A stretch of 64,000 bases of DNA from Verrucomicrobiota bacterium (GTDB lineage Bacteria; Verrucomicrobiota; Verrucomicrobiia; Palsa-1439). Location: contig PLZV01000003.1 in the NCBI GenBank assembly GCA_003152315.1, positions 159-64,158 of the forward strand, given 5' to 3'. Below the pieces are notes generated by a model that did not search any database, was not told where the DNA came from, and was given only the letters and a program-made list of their open reading frames with translations. The position numbers and the translations under genes are program-made. Of the stretch, positions 3,180 to 21,900 are shown piece by piece; position 1 is the first letter of the stretch, and each line of letters opens with the position of its first letter.

Positions 3180-4271
3180 CTAACTCTTCTTCGTTTGGTG
3201 CTCGTGGCGATGGTGTATATCTGGATAGTGTGGGTGCGAGTGAGTCAGTTTTGTGTGCGTGTGAATGTGACTGTGTGGTTCGATGATGGGCGTTTCCGAT
3301 TCATGCTCGTGCCGATGGTGCTCGTTATGTACATGTAGATGCTCGTGTGTCACTTCTTCGTGAGCATGGACGTGCTCATGGCGTTCGCTGAGATGAAGCC
3401 AGACGCCAATACCCATCAGGAGCCCGGCAACGAGTATCCACCCTGTGATCGGTTCGGCCAGAAAAACAACCGAGACAATTGCTCCTAGAAATGGCGCGGT
3501 GGAAAAGTACGCTCCCGTTCGGGCCGTCCCGATATGGCGCAACGCCAGAATGAACAGCACCAGACTCACGCCATATCCGAAAAGGCCGACAAGCCCCGCG
3601 ACGAGCAGCGGCGTCACAGCGGGCATCTTCGCTCCAAGCCACCAGCCAATGCCGCAATTCACCAAGCCGGCCACGCTACCCTTGATCGCCGCGATTTAGA
3701 TTGGGTCACCCGCCGAGACATTGCGAGTAAAATTGTTGTCGATGGCCCAACACAAACACGCTGCGGCAATCGTTAGGTCTGCCCATGGGACCCTGAGTTG
3801 CAAATGTCCCGACCATGTGAGCAGCGCGCCACCCAATGTGATCAAAATCATCCCTGCCGCAATGCGCCGGTCAAAGTTCTCGCGGAAGACGAACCAGGCC
3901 AGGCCAGCCGTGAATACGCCCTCCAAGTTCAACAGCAGCGACGCATTGGCTGCCGTCGTCCGCGCTAGACCGATCATCAGCAGAACTGGACCGAGTAATC
4001 CGCCGCTCAAGATCGCTAGAGAAAGCCACGGAAGATTGGAGGCCCGCAGAGAAGTTTCCTTGGGATGCCTGCCGCCGGAGAACAACCTGCGACAAAAGAG
4101 CCACATACCGAGGCCTATCCCTGACCCGAGATAGAGCAGACCGGCAAGCAAGACGGCGGGAATTTCGCCCAAAAGCAACTTTGCGATGGGGGTGCTCACG
4201 CCAAACAGAACGGCGGCGAGCAAGGCGTATACTACGCCCGGCGAGCGTTGTGCAAACCGTGACTGATTCAT
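3180..4271 (-). pseudogene. DMT/EamA-type exporter with His-rich tail, interrupted by one in-frame TAA
   Basis: Two frames, 3696-4271 (191 aa) and 3180-3674 (164 aa from its own Met), lie in the same reading phase and together make a ten-helix EamA/DMT transporter. The first ends ...FTRNVSAGDPI, then TAA at 3696-3698, and the same frame continues IAAIKGSVAGLVNCGIGWW. A CAA (Gln) would restore the gene with a single base change. The C-terminus carries a tail of about 60 residues very rich in His (HEHVHAHEE, HNEHHRHEH, HSHIHTHTK), suited to Zn/Ni/Co-type ions. Family and neighbours suggest metal export at the inner membrane. A sequencing error, a recent nonsense mutation, or two half-proteins are all possible. 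Confidence 0.75.
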
Positions 4272-4473: not shown

Positions 4474-4938
4474 TCACTCCTTCTTCTCGGCTGACTTGAG
4501 CATTTCGGGTGCGTATTGGGCTTCGATGGTTTTCAAGATGCCTTGAAGCTTCTTGAAGTTGGCTTCTGTGCCGGCCTGATCGTTTGCATCGCCAGATTTA
4601 TCGAGACGGTCTGCAAGGTCCGCAATGAATTTGGTGTTGGTTTTGACCTTCGCCAGTTTGTCGGCGGCAAGGTCCTTGGACTTGTCCGGCAGCGCGTTCA
4701 CCATGTCGCGAATCTCAAAGGCGACTTCGTGCACCTTGTCGAGTTTCTTGTCCGTGATGATCTTACCGAGTTGCTCCTCGTGTTCTTTCACTTCCGACCA
4801 GATGCCGGCAGCAGTGTCCGGTATCTTCATCTTGCCTTCTGTGTGTTCATGTTCTTCTTCGGCGGCCCAAGCAGCGGGCAACCTCGCGATGCCGAGCGCT
4901 ACGCCCAGCAGTGCGACGACGAGTATTCGTTTCTTCAT
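4474..4938 (-). CDS. Small periplasmic helical protein of the RND operon
   Basis: Start set at the ATG at 4938, which has a GGAGAC ribosome site. It gives 154 residues with a signal peptide (KKRILVVALLGVALGIARLP, cleavage near AAWAAEE) and an acidic/His patch (EEEHEHTEGK). The mature part is all helical and rich in Lys, Asp and Leu, reminiscent of helical-bundle metal-stress proteins, but I do not recognise a named family. It begins 19 bp after the RND pump stop and so is the last gene of the efflux operon. A periplasmic metal-binding or buffering role is inferred from the His/Glu patch and the position. Confidence 0.7.
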   Translation of the reverse strand: MKKRILVVALLGVALGIARLPAAWAAEEEHEHTEGKMKIPDTAAGIWSEVKEHEEQLGKIITDKKLDKVHEVAFEIRDMVNALPDKSKDLAADKLAKVKTNTKFIADLADRLDKSGDANDQAGTEANFKKLQGILKTIEAQYAPEMLKSAEKKE

Positions 4939-4957
4939 CTTGTCTCCTTCTGTACGG

Positions 4958-7900
4958 TTAGGTTCTTGCTTCCGAAGGGGAAAGCTGAACCGCGACAGCT
5001 TCTCCCTTTGCTTTCGTGGCACGCTGTTCGCGCCGTTCTTCAATCTTGTTGTACAAGGTCGGAATGACGACCATGTTCAGGAGTGTTGAAGTGAACAGGC
5101 CGCCCAAAATGACGTGCGCCAATGGTCGTTCCAGCTCCTTGCCGGTCGCGTCACCCCACAGCAATGGCACAAGACCAAACGCCGCCGTTGCGGCGGTCAT
5201 GAGCACGGGGTTGAGTCGGTCGAGCGAGCCGTGGATGACCGTGTCGGCGAGCGATTGGCCTTCTTTGCGAAGCTGGTTGTAATGGCTGATCAAAATGATG
5301 CCGTTCCGCGAGGCGATGCCGAAGAGACTGATGAACCCGATCATGGCCGGCACACTCATGTCGCTGCCAGTTAGAAAAATCGCGATTACGCCACCGATCA
5401 ACGCCAGGGGCAGGTTCAGCATCACCAGCAACGCCTCGCGCGCTGTGCCGAAGGCTTGGAACAGCATCAGGAAGATGCCCACCACAGCCCCGATGCCGAA
5501 CAGCATCAGGATGCGTTGCGCCTGTTGCTGGCTCTCGAACTGCCCGCCGTACTGGATGAAGTAGCCGCCCGGCAGCTTCGGAGTGACCTGTTCGTTGATT
5601 TTCTTCTGCGCTTCGGCGATCAGGCTGTTGAGGTCGCGGCCGGCCACATTGCAGGAAACGACGATGCGCCGTTGCACGTCTTCCCGGTTGATGAAATACG
5701 GTTTGTCCTCGAACGCGACGCTCGCCACTTCTCGCAGCGGGACTTTCGCGTTACCGTCCTTCGATAGCGCGGGCGCGTCCACTAGGATGTTGCGGATTGC
5801 GTTGACATCGTTGCGCGCAGAGTCTTGCAATCGCAAATACAAGTCGAACGATTTCTGACCTTCGAGCACTTGGGAGATCGTCACCCCGTTGAGCAACGTC
5901 TCGACCGATTTGGCTAGATCGCCCGCATTGATTCCGTAACGGCTCGCCCGTTCGCGGTCAGCTTTGATGACCAACTGCGGCACGTCGATCTGCTGCTCCA
6001 GCGCGAGGTCTTCCACGCCTTTGACGGTCTGCATGACACCGACCACCTGTTGCCCAGCCTGCCGCAACTTCGCCAAATCGTCGCCGTAAATCTTGATCGC
6101 GACTTGGGCCCGAACGCCAGACAGGATTTCATCCATGCGGTGCGAGATGAACTGGCCGACGCCGTAGACCGCGCCCGGAATCTCCGACAGGTCGGCGCGG
6201 ATGCGGCGGAGCAACTCGTCGGGCCGCATGTTCTTGTCGCGGTCGTAATCCAACCTCACGTCGAACTCGCTGAAGTTCGGCGGCTGAGCGTCCTCGTCGA
6301 GTTCACTGCGCCCCGCCCGCTGCGAGATGGAGACGACCTGCGGATATTTTAGAAGCTTCTGTCGCACGAGGTATCCGAGCCGCATGGATTCGTCAAGCGA
6401 GGTGCCCGGCAACGTACTTTGCACGAGGATGAAGTTGCCCTCGTGAAACTCCGGTAGGAACGAACGCCCAAAGAACGGGATTAGCGCCACGGCAAAGCCG
6501 ATCAATACCACCACAAGAATCACAACGGGCCAGACGTGACGCAAGGTGAAATGCAGCAGGCGCTCGTAGTATTTCTTGAGCCAGTGGGCCACGAAGCTTT
6601 CGCGTAGTTCCTTCTTGGTGTTGCCGATGAGCAGGTAGCAGAGCGCGGGCGTGACCGTCATCGCGACAATTAGCGAGCACAGCAATGAGCCCAGATACGC
6701 TAGGCCCAGCGGCGTGAAAATGCGTCCCTCCAAGCCGGAGAGGAAAAAGATCGGCAGGAACACAATCCCCACGATGAGAGTCGCGTAGATCACCGAATTA
6801 CGGATTTCGCTGCTCGCTTTGAATACAACATCGATGGTGGGTTCTGGGTTTGGCGATTCGCAATTGAGACGAAGCCGACGGAAAACATTTTCCACGTCAA
6901 TGATGGCGTCGTCCACGACTTCGCCGATGGCGATGGCCAGACCGCCAATGGTCATCGAGTTGAGGCTGACGCCGAACGCTCTCAGCACCATCACGCCCGC
7001 CAACAACGAAGTCGGCATCGCGAGAAAACTAATGAACGACGCGCGGATGTTCATCAGGAAGATCAGCAGCACGATAGTCACAATAATGCCGCCTTCGATG
7101 AGCGCCCATTTGAGGTTGCGGATTGAACCTTCGATGAAATCGGCTTGCCGAAATACTTGCATGTTCATCTTCACGTCAGACGGCAACTGTTTTTGGATGT
7201 CGCGTAGGGCCTGCTCGGCTTTGTAGGTCGTGGCAAGCGTATCTGCGCCGTACGTTTTCGAGATCGTGCCGATGACCGCGTTCTTGAGGTTGATCGCGGC
7301 ATCCCCGCGCTTGATCTCCGGGCCGAACTTGACCTCGGCGACATTGCGGACGTAGATCGGCGTGCCCTGGGCGTACTTGACGATCGTGTCGCGCACATCG
7401 TCGAGCGATTGGATTCGCGCCACGCCGGTGACGATGTATTCCTGACCCGGCGCTTGCAGAAATGCGCCGGGGACGTTGACGTTCGATTTCTCCAGCGCGT
7501 CGTGCACCTCGGCGACGCTGACGTGATATGCGCTCAGCCGGTCGGGATCGAGTAACACTTGGTACTGCTTCACGTCGCCGCCCATGCTGACGACGGACGC
7601 GACCCCGCCGAGCGCCAGAATGCGCGGGCGGATTTGCCAGTCGGAGATCGTGCGCAAGTCCATCGGTGATTTCGTGTCGCTTTCGAGGCTGTACTTGATC
7701 ATCCAGCCAACGGTTGATGTGACGGGCAACATCACGGGTGCGTGTGTGCCGGCGGGAAATCGCTCGCGCACGGACTGAATGCGCTCGTTGACCAACTGCC
7801 GCGCCACATACACGTCCGAACCCCAGCGAAACACGATGATCACCGTCGAGAGACCGACCGAGGATTGCGAACGCACCTTCTCCACGCCCGGCGTGCCGTT

Positions 7901-8119
7901 CACCGCGCTCTCGACAGGAAACGTGATCAACGACTCAACGTCTTCGGGCGCAAGACCGGGCGATTCGGTTTGTACAACGACCTCCGGCGGCGCGAACTCG
8001 GGGAAAACATCCACCGGCATCCTCATCGTGACATAGCTGGACGCAACGAGAAAGATGACGAGTCCGACGACGACGAGCAGGTGGTTCTTCAACGACCAGT
8101 GAATGATTTTGTTGAACAT
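4958..8119 (-). CDS. HME-RND heavy-metal efflux pump (CusA/CzcA family)
   Basis: A 1053-residue inner-membrane pump of normal family length. It starts with a short cytoplasmic segment, then TM1 (LLVVVGLVIFLVASSYV) and the RND signature PVDVFPEFAPP. The two large periplasmic loops follow TM1 and TM7, and the C-terminal TM block contains ASRNGIILISHY. The TM4 motif is AIGEVVDDAIIDVENVFRRL. This differs from the Zn/Co/Cd form (DFG..DGA..VEN) and the Cu/Ag form with a single Asp-Ala, and matches the HME3-like class whose substrate is less settled. The pump drives proton-coupled export through the adaptor (8144-9091) and outer-membrane factor (9088-10377), with which it forms one operon. Confidence 0.93.
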   Translation of the reverse strand: MFNKIIHWSLKNHLLVVVGLVIFLVASSYVTMRMPVDVFPEFAPPEVVVQTESPGLAPEDVESLITFPVESAVNGTPGVEKVRSQSSVGLSTVIIVFRWGSDVYVARQLVNERIQSVRERFPAGTHAPVMLPVTSTVGWMIKYSLESDTKSPMDLRTISDWQIRPRILALGGVASVVSMGGDVKQYQVLLDPDRLSAYHVSVAEVHDALEKSNVNVPGAFLQAPGQEYIVTGVARIQSLDDVRDTIVKYAQGTPIYVRNVAEVKFGPEIKRGDAAINLKNAVIGTISKTYGADTLATTYKAEQALRDIQKQLPSDVKMNMQVFRQADFIEGSIRNLKWALIEGGIIVTIVLLIFLMNIRASFISFLAMPTSLLAGVMVLRAFGVSLNSMTIGGLAIAIGEVVDDAIIDVENVFRRLRLNCESPNPEPTIDVVFKASSEIRNSVIYATLIVGIVFLPIFFLSGLEGRIFTPLGLAYLGSLLCSLIVAMTVTPALCYLLIGNTKKELRESFVAHWLKKYYERLLHFTLRHVWPVVILVVVLIGFAVALIPFFGRSFLPEFHEGNFILVQSTLPGTSLDESMRLGYLVRQKLLKYPQVVSISQRAGRSELDEDAQPPNFSEFDVRLDYDRDKNMRPDELLRRIRADLSEIPGAVYGVGQFISHRMDEILSGVRAQVAIKIYGDDLAKLRQAGQQVVGVMQTVKGVEDLALEQQIDVPQLVIKADRERASRYGINAGDLAKSVETLLNGVTISQVLEGQKSFDLYLRLQDSARNDVNAIRNILVDAPALSKDGNAKVPLREVASVAFEDKPYFINREDVQRRIVVSCNVAGRDLNSLIAEAQKKINEQVTPKLPGGYFIQYGGQFESQQQAQRILMLFGIGAVVGIFLMLFQAFGTAREALLVMLNLPLALIGGVIAIFLTGSDMSVPAMIGFISLFGIASRNGIILISHYNQLRKEGQSLADTVIHGSLDRLNPVLMTAATAAFGLVPLLWGDATGKELERPLAHVILGGLFTSTLLNMVVIPTLYNKIEERREQRATKAKGEAVAVQLSPSEART

Positions 8120-8143
8120 GTTTTCCTCGCGCGTTGGTTCTCG

Positions 8144-9091
8144 CTAGTCGGTATCGGTTGGCGGTTTCACGCCTTGGCTCATGAGCGATTTGGTGTAAAT
8201 CTCCCGTTTGCCGTCGGTCACCACGACATCGTCCGGCACGAGACCGTCCTTGATCTCGACGAAGCGGTCGTCCTCCGCGCCCGTCTGCACGTCTACGCGG
8301 CTGAACGAGTCGCCCGTCTGCACGAAAACGAATTTCTCGCCACCCGCTTCCTGGATCGCTTCCTTCGGCACGGACAGAACGCCCTCGTTGCGTGCGAGCA
8401 CGACCGCGACCTTGGAGAACATCTCCGGTTTGAGCTTGGCGTCCGGGTTCTTGACCGTGACCCATACTGGAAGCGTGCGCTTCTCGGAATCGAGTTCCGA
8501 GCCGATGAATGTGATTTTCCCCTCGAATGACTCGGTGGGATAACCGAGCACGCGGATGCGCGCCGTCTGGTCGAGCTTCACCTTGCCCACGTCCTCCTCG
8601 TACACCTCGGCCACGACGATCACCTGCGACAGATCAATAATGTGAAACAGTTCCTTGGTCGGATCAACCGACTCGCCGAGCGTGACCGGGCGGTCGTTGA
8701 TGACGCCACTCATAATGGCCTCAATTTTTACGATGGGTGGCGGATCACCTATCTGGCGCGACTGGATTTCGGCGAGCTTCTGTCCCTTCTCGACTTTGTC
8801 GCCGACCTTGGCGAAAAGACTCTCTATGCGCCCCTCGATGCGCGAGGTGACGTGCGCGTGAAGGTTGGGGTCGAGCTGCACCTTGCCGTTGAGAATCAGC
8901 ACGGTGTCGATGTCGCTTGATTCGGCCTTCGCGGTCTTCAAGCCGATGGCCGCCTGCTGTTCCTTGGTCAGCTTCACCGGCCCTCCTCCTCCCCCGCCGC
9001 CGACCTCGACAGCCGCGCCGTGCGGAAACGCCGGCCGCGCTCCCGCGACCAGCAGTGTCACTATGCTAAGAATAGCTGCGATGTGTTTCAT
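8144..9091 (-). CDS. RND periplasmic adaptor (CusB/CzcB family) lacking the alpha-hairpin
   Basis: A 315-residue membrane-fusion protein with a signal peptide, a poly-Gly linker (VGGGGGGG) and the first lipoyl half (VGDKVEKGQKLAEI). The second lipoyl half (IEAIMSGVINDRPVTLGESV), beta-barrel and membrane-proximal domain follow. In usual adaptors 60-100 residues of coiled-coil hairpin separate the two lipoyl halves; here only QSRQIGDPPPIVK intervenes, so the hairpin that docks on TolC is absent. It overlaps the outer-membrane factor gene by 4 bp (ATGA) and lies 24 bp before the pump gene. It should couple pump and channel, but docking must differ from the standard model. Confidence 0.88.
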   Translation of the reverse strand: MKHIAAILSIVTLLVAGARPAFPHGAAVEVGGGGGGGPVKLTKEQQAAIGLKTAKAESSDIDTVLILNGKVQLDPNLHAHVTSRIEGRIESLFAKVGDKVEKGQKLAEIQSRQIGDPPPIVKIEAIMSGVINDRPVTLGESVDPTKELFHIIDLSQVIVVAEVYEEDVGKVKLDQTARIRVLGYPTESFEGKITFIGSELDSEKRTLPVWVTVKNPDAKLKPEMFSKVAVVLARNEGVLSVPKEAIQEAGGEKFVFVQTGDSFSRVDVQTGAEDDRFVEIKDGLVPDDVVVTDGKREIYTKSLMSQGVKPPTDTD

Positions 9092-10377
9092 GGTTTCTTC
9101 ACCTCGGTTGATTGCCTGAATTTTATGGTGCTGGGGAAAATCCCGGCCGCGATGTCCAAATCGATCAGCCCTTCTTGGTATTCTCGCAGCGTGTCGATGT
9201 AAGAGGATTTCAGTTCGGCAAACTGTTGGCGCGATTGGATCACTTCGACAATGCTGACCTGCCCCTGCCGGTAGCCGTTCTCGACAAGTTTGACATTTTC
9301 CTCGGCGCGTTTCAGGATTTCTGGCGAGTAGGATTCCAACAACGGCGCAAGGGTCTTCACGCGCTGCTGGGCGTCCGCTAGTTCCTGAGCAATTTGAAGC
9401 TTGAGCGCCTCGACGCTCTTTTCCGCTCGGTCTTCGAAGGCCACGGTCTCGCGGATGCGCCCCTTCTTTCGATCAAACAACGGCAACGGAACGGTAAGCT
9501 TCAGTCCGACGAACTGATCCGTGGGTTGAGGCGGCGCACCGTCCACGACACTATGTTCGCTTTCATACGCCGCACCAATGCGCCAGTCCTCGAACCGTTC
9601 AGCCTTGGCGAGTCGCTGTTCCGCTTTGGCTGAGTCCACGTCCAGCCGGGCCGCAACAAAACCCGGCCGCCGTTGCAGCGCATTCTCCAGAGTGTACGCG
9701 GACAGGTCAGGCAGCGGCTGAAAGTCGAGTTTGCCCACCGCGACGAATTCATTATCAGCGGGTTTGCCCACAAGCTTGTTCAGTTCCAGCAGGTGACTGC
9801 GACGTTGTGTTTCCAGCACTGTCTCGCGCTGACGCGCCTGTTGCAACGCGATGTGGATCGCATTGACATCCTTCTCGGAAAGCTGACCACGCTCCACCGC
9901 GCCTTTGGTTGCCGCCAGCAATTCCTCGTTCAACCCGATCAGGAATTGCTGAAGTTTGATCTGTTCCTCGACTGCGAGAAATTCAGTAAACGCCCGTCGC
10001 ACCTCGCCCACGATGCGTCGCTCCAAGTCGGCAACCTCTGCCGCCGTGCGTTCAATCTCCACACGGGCTACGCCCTTTTGCGCACCGATGCGTCCGCTGA
10101 CACTGAACGGCTGGTTGATACCTACGGAAAGATTATGCTGGCCTTCGTCCCTGAACGTGTTGTCGAACCGTCCACCAAGTTCCAGTTCGGGATTGGGCCA
10201 CACACCCGCCTGCTCCAATCCTGCCCGTGTCTCCTCGATGCGCACGCGCGTCGCCGCCAATTCGCGATTGTTCGCCAGCGCGCTTTCCACCGCCGCATCC
10301 ACCGTGAGCGACTCCCGTGCGAGCACGGACACGCTCGTCAAGATCACTACTGCCATGATTAAGATTTGTTTTTTCAT
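9088..10377 (-). CDS. TolC-family outer-membrane efflux factor (CzcC-like)
   Basis: Start set at the ATG at 10377, giving 429 residues with a signal peptide (KKQILIMAVVILTSVSVLA) directly before RESLTVDAAVESALANNREL, the usual start of the mature OEP domain. Two long coiled-coil repeats typical of TolC channels follow (for example ELAATRVRIEETRAGLEQAG and, in the second half, EQRLAKAERFEDWRIGAAYE). No lipobox is seen. It forms the outer-membrane tunnel of the tripartite system, is first in the operon, and overlaps the adaptor start by 4 bp. The longer frame with 14 extra N-terminal residues would place non-signal sequence ahead of the signal peptide and was rejected. Confidence 0.9.
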   Translation of the reverse strand: MKKQILIMAVVILTSVSVLARESLTVDAAVESALANNRELAATRVRIEETRAGLEQAGVWPNPELELGGRFDNTFRDEGQHNLSVGINQPFSVSGRIGAQKGVARVEIERTAAEVADLERRIVGEVRRAFTEFLAVEEQIKLQQFLIGLNEELLAATKGAVERGQLSEKDVNAIHIALQQARQRETVLETQRRSHLLELNKLVGKPADNEFVAVGKLDFQPLPDLSAYTLENALQRRPGFVAARLDVDSAKAEQRLAKAERFEDWRIGAAYESEHSVVDGAPPQPTDQFVGLKLTVPLPLFDRKKGRIRETVAFEDRAEKSVEALKLQIAQELADAQQRVKTLAPLLESYSPEILKRAEENVKLVENGYRQGQVSIVEVIQSRQQFAELKSSYIDTLREYQEGLIDLDIAAGIFPSTIKFRQSTEVKKP

Positions 10378-10463
10378 TCTTGCCTTGAACCTTTTTGGAA
10401 ATGCGCAACACAACTCCACTGCGGGAGTGCAACACAGGTGTGACTCAGTCCGAAACCGAGCCT

Positions 10464-10883
10464 TTAGGCAAGACAGGGGGGTGAACGAGGTGAGAGCGAA
10501 CTGACCAAAAGAAATTCAGGCGGCGTTACGCCAGGCGGTCCATGGTCATACGTCAGACCTGCGCGCGGCACGGTCACAGCGGAATCCGTCGCAAGAATAG
10601 CAACCGCCACTTGGAAAGCCCAGCCCACAGCGGGAATTTGAATGGTCGTCTGTGTGGAAGGAACGATGCTCTTGAGGCTGGCGCAACAATCCGCCTTGCC
10701 GCAGTCATCGTGATGCGAATCCGCGTCGCCGGTATGATGGGATGCTGGCTCGGCCTGCTCATGGCCGCGCCCCAGCATCTGTTCGGCTGCGCACGCGAAA
10801 TTCGCTGCGAAAAACAGCAGTGCAACTGTCGCGGACATTATCCGCAACACGTTTTGCCCTGCCGTTGCCTTTCCAGACATCAT
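10464..10883 (-). CDS. Secreted or membrane-anchored His/Cys-rich small protein upstream of efflux genes
   Basis: A 139-residue protein with an N-terminal hydrophobic signal (IMSATVALLFFAANFACA), then a metal-ligand-rich patch (HHTGDADSHHDDCGKADCCA). A second hydrophobic stretch (AVGWAFQVAVAILATDSAV) is followed by a Pro-rich tail. No named family is recognised. Short proteins with a signal, a His/Cys patch and a late membrane segment commonly open heavy-metal efflux operons, and this gene lies 86 bp upstream of the outer-membrane factor on the same strand. A periplasmic metal-binding or sensing accessory is the best inference. It could equally be a regulatory leader protein. Confidence 0.6.
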   Translation of the reverse strand: MMSGKATAGQNVLRIMSATVALLFFAANFACAAEQMLGRGHEQAEPASHHTGDADSHHDDCGKADCCASLKSIVPSTQTTIQIPAVGWAFQVAVAILATDSAVTVPRAGLTYDHGPPGVTPPEFLLVSSLSPRSPPCLA

Positions 10884-11043: not shown

Positions 11044-11457
11044 CTACTGACCCTTTTCCTTCTTCTCCATCCCTGGCGTCGGTTTGGCAGGCACGGTTGT
11101 CGCGCAGCAGAATGCAGAATTATCACCGCACATACTGCACGTGTGAACCCAGCCCTGCTTGAGCGTCATCTTGCCACCGCAACCAGGGCAACCGTGAACA
11201 GTCTCGACTCTCGTCACTTCCTGCATGCCGCCGGACCGTCCACGCCAGACTTGCTCCTTCTTCATGACGGTCACGGATTTACACATACTGCAAGCCATGG
11301 AGACGGTGGTGCCCGCCGGTAGCGCATCGAAATCCGCTTGGCTCTTGACCTGTGTTTGCTTCTGAACATCGCCCTTGTCAGGCTCTTCAGCCCAGATCGC
11401 GGTCGCCAAGAATGTCACACTCACGAGTGCAAGTAGTCGGACAATTTGCTTCTTCAT
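11044..11457 (-). CDS. Secreted Cys-rich protein, paralogue 1 of 3
   Basis: 137 residues: a signal peptide (KKQIVRLLALVSVTFLATAI, then WAEEP) and three cysteine centres, CSMCKSVTVMKK, HGCPGCGGKMT and HTCSMCGD with FCCAT close behind. The arrangement of C-x2-C pairs is rubredoxin/zinc-ribbon-like. The tail PGMEKKEKGQ is charged. It shares its whole layout with the genes at 11540-11956 and 12055-12393, so the three form a tandem family. I recognise no named domain. Export plus six or more Cys suggests binding of Zn, Cu or another soft metal in the periplasm, which agrees with the neighbouring efflux operon. Whether the cysteines are thiol or disulfide is unknown. Confidence 0.72.
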   Translation of the reverse strand: MKKQIVRLLALVSVTFLATAIWAEEPDKGDVQKQTQVKSQADFDALPAGTTVSMACSMCKSVTVMKKEQVWRGRSGGMQEVTRVETVHGCPGCGGKMTLKQGWVHTCSMCGDNSAFCCATTVPAKPTPGMEKKEKGQ

Positions 11458-11539
11458 CTTACCTCCGGTTTGTTGGTCCTTTTCTTACGTTTCTCCTCAA
11501 GCTCTCGCAGGCAGATCAGGTAAAGAGGCTCCCCAATGA

Positions 11540-11956
11540 TTACGGCCTCTTACCTTCCATCCCTGGGGTTGACTTGCCCGGTGTAGTCGCACAGCAAAAC
11601 GCGCCCGCGCCGCACATGCTGCACGTGTGAACCATCTTCGTCTGCTTCAATTCCGTGGTCATTTTGCCGCCACATCCGGGACATTGATCGACCTGCAGTG
11701 CCTCCTCGACAGTCCCATGCCCGGGTTTGGTAGTGATATTCTCCTTAACGATCATGGTCACAGACTTGCACTTGGGACAGGACATCGCGATGGTCGCATT
11801 GCCGGGAAGCGCAGCGAAATCGTTTGTTGTCTGGACGTGCGTTAGCGTATTCCACGGTTTGGTGCTTTGGCTCGCATCTTGAGCGTACACAACCTTTGCG
11901 GCGGAGACGGTCAGCAAGGCCGCCGTCATCACTGTAATCAGTTTGTTCATTCGCAT
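11540..11956 (-). CDS. Secreted Cys-rich protein, paralogue 2 of 3
   Basis: 138 residues with a signal peptide (LITVMTAALLTVSAAKVVYA) and the same cysteine centres as its neighbour: CPKCKSVTMIVK, DQCPGCGGKMTTELKQTK, HTCSMCGAG and FCCATTPGK. The phrase TTKPGHGTVEEA is shared with paralogue 3, and the PGMEGK tail with paralogue 1, so it bridges the other two. It starts 83 bp upstream of paralogue 1 on the same strand and is probably co-transcribed. Function is unknown; a periplasmic metal-binding role is inferred from the cysteine pairs and the cluster. Confidence 0.72.
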   Translation of the reverse strand: MRMNKLITVMTAALLTVSAAKVVYAQDASQSTKPWNTLTHVQTTNDFAALPGNATIAMSCPKCKSVTMIVKENITTKPGHGTVEEALQVDQCPGCGGKMTTELKQTKMVHTCSMCGAGAFCCATTPGKSTPGMEGKRP

Positions 11957-12054
11957 CTCCTTTGGATAACTACCTTTTTCATTGTTCCTACTCTTCTGCT
12001 TTTGCAGTTATTTGTTAAATGGCTCGCCGCAGTTTGAACGGTGTCCGTTCCCGG

Positions 12055-12393
12055 TCAGGCCCCGCAGCAATGATAGGCGCAGGTGTGGACGTATTTGGTC
12101 TGCTTTAATTCCGTGGCCAGCTTGGCGCCGCAACCGGGGCATTGGTCTACGTTCACTGTCGCCTGGATCGTGCCATGGCCCGGTTTAGTGGTGACTTGTT
12201 CATTGATCGTCAACGGAACCTTGCATTTGGAGCACATCCGCTCGATTGTAAATATGTTCGGCTCAATTTTGGACGCGGGAGCTTGGTTCGCGCTGAGCCA
12301 CGGCTTGGTGCTGTAAGCGGTTCCATCCTGGGCGGCGTTCGCGGCTATGGCGGCGAAGGCGATTACTGCAACGATGCTGAGTACCTTATTCAT
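12055..12393 (-). CDS. Secreted Cys-rich protein, paralogue 3 of 3 (short form)
   Basis: 112 residues, with a signal peptide (NKVLSIVAVIAFAAIAANA) and centres MCSKCKVPL, DQCPGCGAKLATELKQTK and HTCAYHCCGA. The last centre is altered: CSMCG is replaced by CAYHCC, which brings in a histidine, and the C-terminal extension of the other two is missing. It shares TKPWLSANQ / TKPWNTL phrases with paralogue 2. It is the first gene of the minus-strand run and lies 98 bp ahead of paralogue 2. The changed last centre may bind a different metal, or be relaxed. Confidence 0.7.
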   Translation of the reverse strand: MNKVLSIVAVIAFAAIAANAAQDGTAYSTKPWLSANQAPASKIEPNIFTIERMCSKCKVPLTINEQVTTKPGHGTIQATVNVDQCPGCGAKLATELKQTKYVHTCAYHCCGA

Positions 12394-12933: not shown

Positions 12934-15900
12934 CTACGGGACAAGCCGCACCCGGTAGAAGCGAGAAGGGGAATTCGTTGCACCTCCGACGTCCAGGTAA
13001 TTGGTGATCATGTCGCCTGATCCGGGGAGTATTAACGCGAGGCCGATATCGCTAAAGTTGCCGCCGCTGCCGAAAGTGTCGCTGGCCTGCACGGCATTTG
13101 TCCTCCCCCCACCTGCCCGCCAAACAATGCTCAGATCATTGCCTTGCGGAACGAGCGAGACAATCCGGAAAACCGAAGCGGGGTTGGTCGGGTTCAATCC
13201 AGCCAGATACTTATTGAGGTTGTTCTGGCCCGTGCCATCGGCATCGCAAATCGCACAGGAATGGTCGTTGGTCTGGCTGGTGGGATGCCCAAAATACTGT
13301 TGTGACCATAAGTCAGGGATGCCGTCACCATCGCTGTCAGCCGCCGGTGCATTCGTGGATTGGCCCAGTTTGATTCGGTAGAAGACGCTGGGGACCGCGG
13401 CGCCGCCGCTGTCTTTGACCCATTGGACGGCAGCGTTGCCGGGAATGTCGGTGACGATGTCCGTCCAAGGACCGCCGATGAAGTCACAGCGTTCCAGCGA
13501 GTAATACTTTCCGCCGACAGACGTGAAAAACACGCGCGTATCACTTCCCGACGAGTTGATCGCCACGATTCGCAATGCTGAACGGGAGTCGGTTGGATCG
13601 GTCCCGGCCAGAAACTCCACCCAGTTATTTTGACCGTCACCGTCGGCATCGGCCATTGCGGCCGCTTGTGGGCAATTGGTACAGCCAAAATACTGCATCC
13701 GCCACTGCTCCCACGCCAGCGAACTGACGACCAAGCTGACTGAACGGTTGGTTGTGCCGATCCCATTGGCCAGATTCGTGAACGTGACGGTGTCCGTATA
13801 GCTGCCGGGAACCAGATCGCTGGCGGTGCCGTTAACGCTTACGGTGATGTTCGTGCTGGTACCCGGGGATAGCACGCCGCCGGCTGAAGAGAGGCTCAAC
13901 CAACCAGCCGCGTTTGTCACTGCCCAACTCAGACTGCCCATCCCGGTGTTGGTGACCGCGTATACTTGCGAGGCCGGAAGGAACGGTCCCCCCACCGAAC
14001 CGGTGGAACTCAGGCCGGCGCCGGGCATAGCGGAGAGAATGCCGACGCCTTGCACCACGAATTGCACGCTCTTGCCGGAGTGACCGATGCCGTCACTGGC
14101 CACCAGCACCACATTTGTAGCCGCTTGAAGAACCGTGACCGCCCCGGTCCACACGCCGGCAGCGAAGCTGCCCGAATTCGTGGGCGTCATCGCCAAAGCG
14201 GCTCCGCTCCCCGACTTGATCATATCCAAAGACCAACTACCAAAGGAGCGCATGGCAACACCACCGGCCAGGGAACTCTTGTTCGTGTAACTGAGCGAAT
14301 TCAAGAGAGTCACGCCGTCCGTGTCGTACAGACTGCATTGCACCGATATCGGCGACGTGAACCGCACGACTGCCTTGTACCATTTGTTTAGCTGCCAGGT
14401 CTGATTCGTTATCACCACGTTGGTGAATTGATAACCCAAATTCTGATCAATCATGATTTGACCGGAGTTTGGCGCAGCCACAAACGACCAGGCGCCTGTC
14501 GACGATGCGGCAAATCCAAGATAGGCCCGGCCAGCGGTGCCGGAAGGTCGAATCCACCACGAGAGTTCGTTCCCCACATCGCCCAGTCGAACGTCTGTCC
14601 GATATGCCCAATCCGGATCGCGCAACCCGAAGTTGCCATCGTGGGCGAAAGCGGCGGACAGTGTCCCGGCATTGCCAAGCAACACCCACGGGGCATGCGG
14701 CCAAACTCCGCTCTCAAAATCTTCCACCACACTGGTGACGCCATCCGCCGAAGCCGTAAGACCCACCGGGCCCGTGAAGCTCGTCACGGTATTGTTTCCC
14801 GCATCCTGCGCAGTGACGGCGACAGAGAACGGGATGCTCTGCGATTGCGGCGAAGGCACAGTGCTCCATGCGAAATGGTCGAGTGGACCGACCTGTACAG
14901 TGAAGGGATTGCTCAGGCCGATATGGCCGGAGCCGTCGGTGGCAACCAGCCGCACGTTCGTCAACGGGTTGGTGATTGTGACGCTGCCGGTCCACTGTCC
15001 CGCACTAAACGTCCCCGAGTTTGCAGGCGAGATCAAAACGGCGCCGAGGGTACTTGTCGCGGTCAACGAAACAAAGCCCGCAAATCCCGTGAAGATTCCG
15101 TTCGTGGCGTCTCGTGCGGTAATCGTCACAGTGATGGGCACTGCCGCTGTCTGCGGGCTGGCAACTGCGGAGAATGAGAAATGGTTCAACGGCAGGAGGA
15201 TCGTCAAACTGGCGCTCCGGATTACGCTGCCGCTGCCGTTCGTAAGATTGGTGATGGCCACAGTGTCGGAGTAACTCCCAATTCCCAGAGCACTTGCATT
15301 TGAATTAATCGAAACTGTCACAGTTGTGCCTTCACCCACACCCAAAGTCCCACTCGTGGCCGACAGACTCAGCCAGCTTTGGCTGTTGTTCGCCGACCAA
15401 CTCAACCCCGCGCTGCCACTATTCGTCAATGAGTACACCTGGCTGGCCGGACTAAATGGTCCCCCGATAAATCCACTGGAAGCCAGCCCCGCCGCCGGTG
15501 TGACCGTGAGGATTGCGGCCGGCGTGACCGTCAGGGACACACCGCGGGTGGTGTTGCCCAATCCGTTTACAAGATTGTTGAAGACGACGCTGTCGGTGTA
15601 ACTGCCCGCCCACAGGTTATTCGCATTGCTATTGATCGAAACCGTCACTGTCGTGCTGCCACCCCCCGAAAGGGAACCGCTGGTGGCAGACAATGTCAGC
15701 CAGTTATTGCTGTTGCTCGCGGTCCAATTCAGCGTCGCGGTGCCGGTATTGCTCACCGTGTAGTTCTGGCTCAATGGAGCGAATGGTCCGGTTTGCGGTC
15801 CCGTCGAGTTCAGTCCGCTACTCGGTGTCACAGCAAGATTGGCTGGTAGAGTAATCGTCAACGTCACGCCGCGCTGCGTTGTCCCGTAGCCATAGGTGAG

Positions 15901-18900
15901 ATTGGTAAATGTAATCGTGTCTGCATAGGTACCAACCGCCAGGCCGTTGGCACTGGAATTGATCGTGGCGTCGACCGTCGTGCTGGCTCCCGGGGCCAGT
16001 GTTCCACCGGTGGCCGACAAACTGACCCAGGGGGCCATGTTCGTTGCTGACCAGTTAAGTGCCAATACGCCGCTGTTGGTCAGTGTGTATGTCTGGTTCA
16101 CCGGGCTGAATGGTCCGCCGATCAAACCTGCGGAAACCAGGCCCGTGGTGGGGGTGACAATCAACGACCCCGCCGCATCAACGCTGGTCACTGCAGTGGC
16201 AACATTGTTAGACGGGTTGGGATCCGCCCCGCTCGAAACAATCGCGGCGATGTTGGTAAGAACGGTGGGCTGCGGCGGGAGCACTACCACATTGATTGTT
16301 GCATTGCCTCCCGCGTTGATCGCGCCGAGACCGGCAGTAACCACGCCATTTGACTGGCTCCAAGTTCCCTGGGACACATTCGCCGAGACGAACGTCGCGT
16401 CTGACGGCAGGCGATCCAGAACCTGCGCGTTGACGACCGCGCTGGGGCCGCCGTTGGTGGCGGTGATCGTGTACGTCAGATAGCTTCCCGTGCCAACAGG
16501 CGCCGGCGAAACAGATTGGGTGAGGGCGAGGTCCGCCGGAAGCCCAACCCCTTGGGAAATCCAGCGCACCCCATTGCCGATCGTGACGAACACGTTGTTG
16601 CCGTCGCGAGACACGCGCACGCGACCGGCTGAGAAGCTTGAGTTATTGGGGGCCCAGCCAAATGAATAACCGCAATCGTAGCGCGTGACTTCCGCGAGTG
16701 TATGGGTTTCGTAGACGCGCAAGTAGGTGGTGGGAATCCACGGCAGATAGACCAGATCGGCCTGCGGATGATAGCCAACACCCAGCGGGCCCTCGGAAAA
16801 GTAAGCGCCCAGAACAGCGACCCGGGTCAGAGTGGCATCGAAAATCGGCATCCCGAAATAGGCTGGCGTCGCAAACTGCGTGCCGTCGCGATTCACACCG
16901 ATATCGAACGGCTCGGTCATGCCGGAATGAACCGTCACGGTTTGGGTCGCAACATCATACCGGTCGAACGATCCGGGATCCATGTGGGTCTCCGCCCGTC
17001 CGATCGTGCGTCCGTCACCGCTGCTGGTAAGCATGTCCGCTGTGCCGCCCCCAACGAGCGTATATTGGTTGGTAGCCGGGTCAAATCGCAGTAACGGTCC
17101 GGCGGCAAAATACTGGCCCACGGAGCTAACCAAAGCCGCGTTGTCATTCCCGAAGGCTACGCACCAACTGCCAGCTCCTGCTCCGGGCGGATACTCAGAT
17201 TTTCGAATGTTGCCACTCGGGAGATCCACGACGTAGACCCAGAGCGCGTTGGTTCCAATCACGTTGTCCGCTACGACCAATGTATTGTTGTCGGGCGAGA
17301 TGTCGATTCCGATAAGGTTGCTTCCAAAGATAAACGGCGATAGAAACGCCCCGGCGTTGAGGTCATAGCGCAGTACCTGGTTGCCAGCGGTAATGTACAA
17401 AAGACCGCGCGCTGAATCGGACACCATGTCCACGCGATTGGTGGCAGGGATGAATGTGTTTGACGCTGGACGCACCACGTAGAATGCGTTGCTTTGGCCT
17501 GTGTGACCGAATCCATCGTCCACAGTGATCGTCAGATTCGCGAGAGTAAAGGTGTTCACAGTTATGAAGCCGGTCCATTGTCCGGCCGTGAACGCGCCTG
17601 TGTTTGTCGGCGAAAGGGAAACACCTCCGACACTGCTCGTGGCGCTCACGGTAACGGCATTTGTGAACGACGTGAAGATCCCATTCGTAGCGTCACGCGC
17701 TGTGATCATGACTGTAAAGGGCACCGCCGAGGTCTGTGGGTTGGCGATCGCGGATAGCGTGAAATGGTCAGGCGCGGGCCCGACGGAGAGTCGCATGAAG
17801 CGGCTGGTGTTGCCGAAGCCATTGGAAAGATTGGCGAACGCCACACTGTCGAAATAGTAGCCGCTGGTCAAGCCGTTGGCGCTAGCGTTGATCGAGGCCG
17901 TAACGCCGACGCCGGCACCCGGGGACAGCATCCCACTTGTGGCCGACAGGCTCACCCATTGGCTCGCATTTGTCGCTGACCAAGCCAGGGCCACATTGCC
18001 TGTATTGGTCAACGTATACAATTGACTCGGCAGGCTGAATGGCCCACCGATCGGCCCACGAGACGTTAGCCCGTTAGTGGGCGTGACCGATAAATAGGGG
18101 ACTCCGTACACGGTCAGGTCCACTCCGCGGCTGGTGTTGCCGATTCCGTTCGTGAGATTCGCAAATGTGACGGTGCCGTGGTAACTCCCGAGGGCGAAAG
18201 CGGCGGCATTCGAATTGATCGAGATCGATACGGTACTGCTCTGGCCAATCGCCAACGTTCCATTCGTGGGGGACAGACTCAGCCAGTTCTGCCCACTGCT
18301 GGCGGACCAATTCAAGAGCGAGCTTCCGTTATTGGTCAGCGTATACGTCTGGCTCGACGGGCTGAACGGCCCGCCCACCTTACCGGCGGAGACAAGGGAC
18401 GTTCCCGGCGTGACACTCATCGCCGCAATCCCTTGCACCGCGGTAATCGCCTGGACGGTATTGTTGTTAGGGTTGGGATCCGCGGCACTTGACGTGAGTG
18501 CCGCGACGTTCGTGAGGATGGCCTCGGCAGACTGGACAATCACGACGTTCACTGTCGCGGAGGCGCCGCCGGCCAGCGCGCCGAGCGCACACGAGACCAA
18601 TCCATTTGAGAGACTGTACGAACCTTGCGAAGTGGTTGCCGAAACGAAGGTGACGCCGGGCGGGAGAAGGTCAAACAATTGCGCATCCGGGACTCCGTTC
18701 GGGCCGTTGTTGCTCACCGTGATGGTGTACGTCAGGTTACTTGCCACGCCAACCGGGTCGGGTGAGTCGAGCATGGACACGACGAGGTCCGCTGGTGGAG
18801 CGGTTCCACGCGAAATCCAGCGCACACCCCCACCAACGCTGACGAACACATCGTTGCCATCCGCCGAAGTTCGTACACGCCCTCCCTGATAGGTCGCCCC

Positions 18901-21900
18901 TCCCGGTCCACTGAAGGTGTATCCGCAATCGTAACGTGCCACTTCGGCCAACGTGTGCGTTTCATACGCGCGGAGAAACGTGGTCCCGTTCCAGGAAAAG
19001 AACGCCAGGTCCGCCTGCGGATGATAGCCAACCCCCACGGGACCTCCGAGGGTTACGATGGGGTTGAAATTGCCATCGAATATCGCTGTGCCCTGGGACG
19101 TTGGCACAGCAAACTGACTGCCATCCCGGTTCACGCCGATTTCATCCGTATACCATCCGGAACATCGCCCGGAGGGGATAGTCTGGGTCGCCACATCGTA
19201 CTTTAGGCCGGGCCCGCAGGAGTCGTTGGATTCCGCGATGCCGATCGTTTTCCGGTCGCCGCTGCTGCGCAGCATGCTGTACTGATCCAATCCATCGAAA
19301 ACCACCTTGACCTGCTTCGTTACGGGATCGTACCGACGCAGGGGAGTGAACCCGGAACCCTGGAACCCGGACGTGAACAAGACCGCGCCGTCATTGCCAA
19401 AGGCAACCGACCAGCTGCCGCTCTCATATTGGGCCAAGGGGAATTCGGCCTTCTGGCTCGTACCGCTTGGCAGGTCGATGACCCAAATCCACAGATTGCT
19501 CGTGTAATTCCCGTCTGCCACGACCAACGTGTTGTTGTCGGGCGAAATATCCAGGCCCTTCAGGTTGCTGCCGGAAAAGGTAAACGACGGCAGGTACGTG
19601 CCGCCGACAAGATCATAACGCAATACCTGAGAGCCTGCCGAGATGTAGAGAATCCCCCGCGTGGCATCCTCTACCATGTCCGTGGGAGTGGGGGCGGGTA
19701 TGAGCACGTTGGCTGGTGGGCGGAACACATCGATAGGGTTGCTCGACACCGTGTGGCCAACACCATCATTGGCTGTAATGGTCACATGGGCGAGGGTAAG
19801 CGAGTTGACCGTCAACAGACCGGTCCATTGTCCGGCAGTGAACGCTCCCGATGTCACTGGTGAGAGCGAAGCGGGTTGCACGCTGCTGGTCATGCTGAAG
19901 GTAACGACGTTGGTAAACGCTGTGAAGATCCCGTTCGTCGCATCCCGAGCCGTGATTGTCACCGAGAAGGGAACCCCCGAGGTTTGAGGGTTGGAGATGG
20001 TGGAGAATGAGAAATGGTCAGGGGTGGGGCCAACAGCCAGTCCCACGCCGCGGTTGGTGTTGCCGATCCCGTTATAAAGATTGGCGAATGTAACCGTGTC
20101 GAAATGGTTTCCCGTCGTGAGGCCATTCGCAGCCGGGTTGATACTCACGGTGACAAAGGCGCTGCCGCCCGGGGTAAGTGTCCCGGTCGTAGCTGACAGA
20201 GTTACCCACGGACGCGTATTGGTTGCCGACCAGGTCAATGTCGCGTTGCCAGTGTCAGTTATGGTGTACACTTGGCTGGTTGGGTTGAACGGACCGCCGA
20301 CGGGACCGCGTGAAATCAAGCCGCCCAGCGGATTAACCGACAGGGTTGGCGCAAGCGCCGCGGTGGTAGCGACGGCCTGATTGCCATAATCGGAATCCGC
20401 TACCGCGTTGTAAGCCCGGACCCGGTACCAATACTTCGTGTTCGGTACCAGTCCTGTATCAGTCAACGACGTGATGCTCGCACCGACGAGCGTGATTTGC
20501 GACCACGTTCCGGGACTACCACTGCTGTCTGGCGCCCGCTCGATCTTAAATCCGTCCTGATTACCGGCGTTGTTGGTCCACGACAGCCTAATCTGATCAA
20601 TAGCAAATGAGGTAGCCGTCAGGGCCAAGGGTCCATTCGGGGCACAGGTCAATGCCAATGCGTGACCACCGCAGGCGATTGTTCCCACCGCCTTCAAACC
20701 AGTGGGCGGCGTTGGCGTGCCGTACCCGTTGTACCCCCAACCCACAACGGTGCCATCGCTCTTCAATGCGAGGCTTGTCGCGCCACCGGCCGCTATGGCC
20801 ACCACGTTGCTTAATCCCGCCGGCACGATGGTCTCGCCATACCTCTCCCATCCCCAAGCGACGACAGTGCCATCGCTTTTGAGCGCGAGACTGTGATATT
20901 GACCGGCAGCGATGGCGACCACTCCGGTCAAACCTGCCGGCGGATCCGCCGCAATACCCGATGGCCAGCCAACGACCGTGCCGTCGCTCTTGAGCGCCAA
21001 TGCGTGATAACTGCCGGCGGTGACTGCCACCACACCGTTCAGGCCGGCGGGCTGATTCGTCAACGAATCGTTGCCCCAGTCAATAACCGTACCGTCACTC
21101 TTCAGGGCAATATTGTGGATCTCACCCGCGCTGATGGCGACAACTCCACCCAGACCCGGCGGCAGCGCTGTTAGATTGGTTTCACCCCAACCCACAATCG
21201 TACCGTCATATCGTAGTGCAAGACTGTGATACTGGCCAGCGGCAAGGGCCACTACTCCGGTCAGCCCTGTTGGTGGTGTGGCTTGGCCGAAGTAATTGTA
21301 ACCCCAAGCGAAGACTGTCCCGTTGGTTTTCAAGACCAGACTGTGCCAGCCGCCCGCGGCGACGGCGGCCACGCCGGCCAGGCCCGGCGGTGGTGTTGCC
21401 TGACCCTGGTCGTTCAGCCCCCAGCCGACAACGGATGTCGGGCAGAGAGACGGCGCAGTCACCCCGGGCATGTTGGAAAAGGCAGACGCACCATTTGCAC
21501 TGTAAGCGCGTACTCGATAATAATACCTTGTGCCGGGCCAAACCCCGGTGTCGCGATAAACCGTCGTGTTCGGCAGCACCTGAGCGATCTGGGTGAAGTT
21601 CGTATTATCAAGAGATCGCTCGATCTTAAATCCGTCCTCATCGCTGGAGTTGTCTATCCACGACAGATTGATCTGATGGTAGGAGAATGCTGCAGCCGTC
21701 AAATTCGAGGGCGGGGATGGTGGAGGGGGGACAGTCGTCGAGGCTTGGTTGCTGTACGCTGAATCACCACCGGTGTTATAGGCACGTACACGATACCAGT
21801 ATGTCCCGATAGCAGGAAGTCCCGTATCGCTATATGCGGTGACATTGGAGCTGACACTTGTTATTTGCGCCCAAGTGCCGGGAGTTCCCAGGGTGTCCGG

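Follow-up and report, generated by a model that had tools for sequence, protein, structure and literature searches.

What three small, cysteine-rich proteins, encoded one after another at the side of a metal pump, might do for the cell is the question raised by this locus in a genome of the Verrucomicrobiota. The initial annotation of the window, by which we mean the whole 64,000-nucleotide stretch of DNA analysed, had described tandem paralogues sharing a signal peptide, a C-x2-C centre, CPGCG and a last Cys group, altered to CAYHCC in the shortest one, next to metal efflux genes. The open reading frames and motifs are as claimed, the altered group being that of member 3, and the efflux genes (a CusA/CzcA permease, an adaptor and an outer-membrane protein, 4958-10419) adjoin the array on the same strand. 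The trio opens, on the 5' side, a run of eight genes that share one direction, with the CusA/CzcA-type RND pump genes towards the 3' side:

12055..12393, (-) strand: family member 3, 112 aa, short form ending in CAYHCCGA; most upstream gene of the run
11540..11956, (-) strand: family member 2, 138 aa; CPKC / CPGC / CSMC / CC, tail TPGME
11044..11457, (-) strand: family member 1, 137 aa; CSMC / CPGC / CSMC / CC, tail TPGME
10464..10883, (-) strand: exported His/Cys protein, faintly CopL-like (HHDDCGKADCC); NF033807, 18.6 bits, E 0.0023, cut-off 40
9088..10419, (-) strand: outer-membrane efflux protein, CusC/CzcC type; PF02321, 139 bits
8144..9091, (-) strand: periplasmic adaptor, CusB/CzcB/IhpB type; PF16576, 139 bits; TIGR01730, 132.9 bits, cut-off 94.9
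4958..8119, (-) strand: heavy-metal RND permease; TIGR00914, 885.6 bits, cut-off 701.45; TM4 motif AIGEVVDDAIIDVEN
4474..5043, (-) strand: small exported-looking protein, 3'-most gene of the run; PF20531 (DUF6746-like), 17.7 bits, cut-off 27

The window thus holds a complete heavy-metal RND set, formed by a permease scoring over the TIGR00914 cut-off, an adaptor and an outer-membrane factor. From 5' to 3', the genes of the run are separated by gaps of 98, 82, 160 and 44 bp, and thereafter overlap or come into near-contact; the start of the last open reading frame (4474..5043) overlaps the end of the permease gene, and its true start is therefore probably internal. Promoter and terminator scans of the window gave results at chance level only, so that it is from gene order that we infer an operon. 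Neither a regulator nor an ECF/CnrX module was seen at its side, and an Rfam scan of the window detected only a tRNA. The gene immediately upstream of the array (12934-22404, (-) strand) encodes an exported-looking repeat protein of 3156 aa, in which fibronectin-like, RCC1-like and BACON-like repeats can be recognized by eye; past the other end of the run, an EamA-type transporter (3180-4271, (-) strand) is split into two open reading frames (3180-3674 and 3696-4271), possibly by a frameshift.

The interpretation that we hold to be probable, by a reasonable degree of confidence, is that the three proteins are Sec-exported, Cys-thiolate metal-binding accessory proteins, either chaperones or buffers, of a heavy-metal efflux operon. 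Their leaders are of the expected kind, featuring a Met-Lys/Asn start followed by a hydrophobic stretch and by a cleavage site of the A-x-A type, and plausible signal-peptidase I sites (AIWA|EE, VVYA|QD and AANA|AQ, one per protein) can be read from the sequences. After a variable linker follow, in this order, C-x2-C-K, V-x2-CPGCG-x-K and LKQ...VHTC; C-x2-C-K, CPGCG-x-K and VHTC-(x2 or x3)-C-C/G are invariant in all three. Members 1 and 2 end in CSMCG-x(3-4)-FCCAT...TPGME, member 3 in CAYHCCGA. Pairwise identity is about 45-50%, with E values around 1e-25 between the paralogues and as low as 6.5e-24 for homologues in other genomes: the similarity of the three proteins is far above chance. A tandem repeat search found no DNA repeat at the array, which accordingly represents gene duplication.

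The graded loss of cysteines, which the initial annotation had proposed for the array, is overstated. The three proteins contain 8, 8 and 7 cysteines, and a fourth member in the same genome, on contig 48 (L004/L051:9566-9904), contains 7, is 68% identical to member 3 and ends in HTCVNACCGA. The dN/dS ratio between member 3 and this copy, about 0.35, indicates that the short form is under selection rather than decaying, and, as far as the comparison of one pair of sequences goes, it is a stable subtype under purifying selection. The fourth copy, solitary and of the short CC-GA type, adjoins a sigma-factor-like gene, and no metal genes are found there. In a tree of 46 rows, members 2 and 3 of the window group with the solitary copy (91/87), while member 1 is unplaced.

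Taken as a whole, the family comprises 46 independent loci, all from Verrucomicrobiota wherever the record gives a phylum. Whole-genome searches detected members in 26 of 236 genomes of the class, using a single protein, and in 19 of 289 genomes of the phylum, using a profile. A scan of all GTDB contigs with one protein produced no relatives; when all GTDB representatives were scanned with an alignment of intermediates, 14 loci were found, assigned to Verrucomicrobiota where a phylum is named and otherwise recorded as "bacterium". A plasmid search gave no family match. The family has so far been found only in Verrucomicrobiota, this restriction being read from a database-wide scan with short exact patterns, for which absence elsewhere is no proof of absence. 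Export-type leaders and conserved cysteines are general features of the family: a hydrophobic run is present in 50 of 52 members, an A-x-A-like site in 39 and a lipobox in 8, as counted by simple patterns and not by a trained predictor, and among 26 divergent members five cysteines never vary (C60, C63, C92, C95 and C112) and a sixth, C115, hardly does. A few loci depart from the common arrangement. One encodes a 191 aa protein in which two family repeats follow each other, and a small YHS-like protein and an ECF gene precede it (L107:9615-10190); in one genome, several Cys proteins with a weak and divergent likeness to the family are clustered (L101:5007-10853); and in one case the leader and the body of a member lie in different frames, because of either a pseudogene or an assembly error (L052:9564-10113).

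The initial annotation had judged the proteins to be unlike known metallothioneins or copper chaperones, and no Pfam, NCBIfam or PDB family does in fact claim them, nor was a strong match to a known family of another role found. None of the three window proteins matches a Pfam or NCBIfam family over its cut-off, and a search with 26 members yielded no more than scattered matches to zinc ribbons, all of them sub-threshold, the TFIIB and IS1595 types being the best; on the window proteins, the highest zinc-ribbon scores are 19.5 bits for PF08271 (cut-off 29) and 16.8 for PF13453 (cut-off 22). From PDB sequences, a profile search retrieved zinc-ribbon and zinc-finger proteins alone, all of them marginal (best E 0.008). 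Two AlphaFold models, mainly beta strand, are of low confidence (pLDDT 66.6 and 57.5), and Foldseek found no usable fold with them (best E 0.48). Haem binding was considered and ruled out, no CxxCH being present. A literature search found no description of the family. The proteins thus form a genuine family that is new to description, while the role proposed for them is of a familiar type.

The likeness to zinc ribbons, suggested by the spacing of CPxCG and HxCxxCG, is a lead only. It would also be compatible with a purely structural zinc, holding the fold of a protein that functions through protein-protein interaction, the adaptor and the cell envelope being conceivable partners. Such a role is quite improbable, in spite of zinc ribbons of the TFIIB and IS1595 types being the best sub-threshold matches, since the C-terminal pair varies in number and spacing (CC, C-x3-CC, CxxC) more than one would expect of a site serving structure alone, and since the family is associated specifically with metal export. 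Multiple CxxC pairs in an exported protein, in a context of metal stress, might alternatively belong to a thiol-disulfide protein, which protects or repairs oxidised proteins under such stress and whose CxxC pairs are either redox-active or structural disulfides. We regard this as fairly improbable: no thioredoxin or Dsb family is matched over its cut-off, and the CPxC and HxCxxCG pattern resembles the metal knuckles of zinc ribbons, at the sub-threshold level described. That the cysteines could be disulfides in the oxidising periplasm was counted against metal binding.

A metal-binding accessory role is supported by the association with metal-efflux genes. All CusA/CzcA homologues were located in the 35 family-bearing genomes, distances being taken from the match tables and expectations being computed from pump number and genome size. 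A CusA/CzcA gene lies within 5 kb of a member in 16 of these genomes, against 0.68 expected, and within 10 kb in 18, against 1.2. The corresponding P value for 5 kb, about 7e-19, is nominal, the genomes being related; the linked cases nonetheless span about 15 families. The family does recur beside metal genes in other genomes. Within 10 kb, the 46 non-duplicate loci feature RND genes in 19 cases; CusB-like genes are found at 22 loci and DUF3347 at 9, with one of the DUF3347 neighbours scoring over the cut-off and two just under. CPx ATPases with HMBD adjoin members at several loci. The plan of the window is repeated at one locus (L036), where a member, a YHS-like protein, a small Cys protein, CusC, HMBD-CusB and CusA follow each other on one strand. 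Some metal gene was scored at 37 of the 46 loci, a figure to be taken as an upper bound, because the P1B and YHS counts are contaminated by the HMBD shared with CusB and by zero-distance matches to the family itself. At four Methylacidiphilum-like loci (L044, L046, L049 and L053), members adjoin a P-type ATPase with a Cation_ATPase_N domain, in which no CPx/HMBD motif was found, and the role of the family may differ there. Nine of the 46 loci lack any scored metal gene; these, together with the Methylacidiphilum-like group, the low-confidence models and empty fold search, a window pump devoid of the CusA methionines and a window operon with no ECF/CnrX module or regulator seen at its side, count against the accessory-protein reading. 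The genomic link of the family to metal export and sensing is, at the level of gene neighbourhoods and within one phylum, robust.

Sensing enters the picture through genes which adjoin many members. CnrX-like, anti-sigma and ECF genes are found within 3 kb of a member at 13, 13 and 16 of the 46 loci, respectively, and ECF density, 7.3 per 100 kb within 2.5 kb of a member, falls to 0.5 or less beyond 5 kb, a decrease with distance which serves as an internal control. One of the CnrX-like neighbours scores 28.7 bits with PF13801 (Metal_resist), cut-off 29.2. At two loci (L048 and L055), the order anti-sigma, CnrX-like, ECF, member is found on one strand. Lying in or beside such modules at many loci, the family genes are probably metal-induced. 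The same neighbourhoods, with a member adjoining all three kinds of genes at about 13 of 46 loci and, at several of these (L048 and L055), immediately following the ECF gene, would also suit a role in signalling. The protein would then be no pump buffer, but either an accessory sensor or a ligand through which the CnrX/anti-sigma/ECF system responds to metal or redox state. Such a signalling role is unlikely. About two thirds of the loci, the window operon included, feature pump genes or other contexts and no module; the role of sensor is already filled by CnrX; and the presence of three paralogues in one operon is easier to understand for a binder, as a matter of dosage, than for a sensor. 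The similarity to the CnrYXH system of Cupriavidus is one of neighbourhood, Metal_resist (CnrX-like), anti-sigma and ECF sigma genes adjoining many members, whereas the family itself is none of the three regulators, and the module was not seen beside the window operon.

The different metals or doses at which the array hinted, according to the initial annotation, are a conjecture: the cysteine counts of the three copies differ by one, and the family as a whole adjoins Cus-type, Czc-type and P-type pumps. Cu(I)/Ag(I) is suggested by most neighbouring pumps, which display the CusA-like Met motifs LLYMP and RIDML and are accompanied by adaptors or ATPases of the HMBD type; some pumps are of the Czc type (DFG...DGA...VEN; L050, L091 and L103). 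The window permease, aligned to ZneA and CusA, fits neither set. It lacks the CusA three-Met cluster, featuring V, F and E at M573, M623 and M672, as read by eye from an alignment with CusA (3t51), and DFG-x3-DGA-x3-VEN, the TM4 motif of the HME1/HME2 CzcA-CnrA subgroup (PMC3637150), is replaced by AIGEVVDDAIIDVEN. The window adaptor contains no HMBD motif, and its scores, all under the respective cut-offs, are 131 bits for IhpB, 114 for CzcB and 48 for CusB. With neither motif set in the pump, and an adaptor closer to IhpB/CzcB than to CusB, the metal of the window operon may be divalent.

Among known systems, the closest functional analogue would be CusF, which chaperones Cu(I)/Ag(I) in the periplasm for the Cus system of E. 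coli and is a five-stranded OB-type barrel using one His, two Met and a Trp (PMC7558416). Like CusF, the family consists of small exported proteins encoded with a CBA-type RND pump, to which they would be expected to hand over metal; the two differ in that the conserved residues of the family are cysteines, with no Met/His/Trp set, and they appear unrelated by sequence, no CusF-type Pfam or NCBIfam family being matched by the window trio up to E = 1. Exported, Cys-based metal holding, as predicted for the family, is also characteristic of Csp1, a Tat-exported four-helix bundle which binds up to 13 Cu(I) (PMC7558416). The family leaders are, in contrast, Sec-like or of the lipoprotein type, the cysteines number about 7-8 and the low-confidence models are mainly beta; no Csp-type family was found among the profile matches of the members. 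Bacterial metallothioneins of the SmtA type are small thiolate binders as well, a property predicted for the family, but the family is exported, lower in Cys and free of CxC-rich clusters, and the Pfam and NCBIfam results include no bacterial metallothionein. Zinc ribbons (Zn_ribbon_TFIIB, Zn_Ribbon_TF and the YgiT/MqsA finger) share the CPxCG ... CxxCG knuckle pattern and give weak matches, all below curated cut-offs. Known proteins of these types are cytoplasmic nucleic-acid or enzyme domains, whereas the family is exported.

For Cys-thiolate accessory proteins of an efflux operon, the following course of events may be envisaged. The proteins would be exported to the periplasm through their Sec leader, the lipoprotein subfamily remaining at a membrane, and the paired cysteines (C-x2-C, CPxC, HxCxxC and the terminal CC or C) would bind metal ions of the soft or borderline class. 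At most loci these would be Cu(I)/Ag(I); at some, of which the window may be one, Zn, Cd or another divalent ion is possible. The metal would be buffered and then delivered to the co-expressed RND pump, or held until efflux. What the sequences themselves show is the gene family, its export-type leaders and conserved cysteines, the purifying selection on one pair and the genomic association; metal binding, buffering or hand-over, the identity of the metal and induction are all steps that we infer.

A broader and more doubtful, albeit possible, hypothesis is that a zinc-ribbon-like, phylum-restricted periplasmic scaffold represents the Verrucomicrobiota counterpart of CusF, that is, an exported multi-thiolate metallochaperone working with Cu/Ag, Czc-type and P-type exporters, wired to ECF/CnrX sensing, and whose paralogues are tuned to different metals. 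Verrucomicrobiota are abundant in soil and water, and their metal tolerance is little described in searchable papers. If the proposed role is correct, the family would mark the metal-response loci of this phylum, and would allow thiolate chaperoning to be tested outside the cytoplasm, a setting in which the pump chaperones known so far, CusF for example, rely on Met and His.
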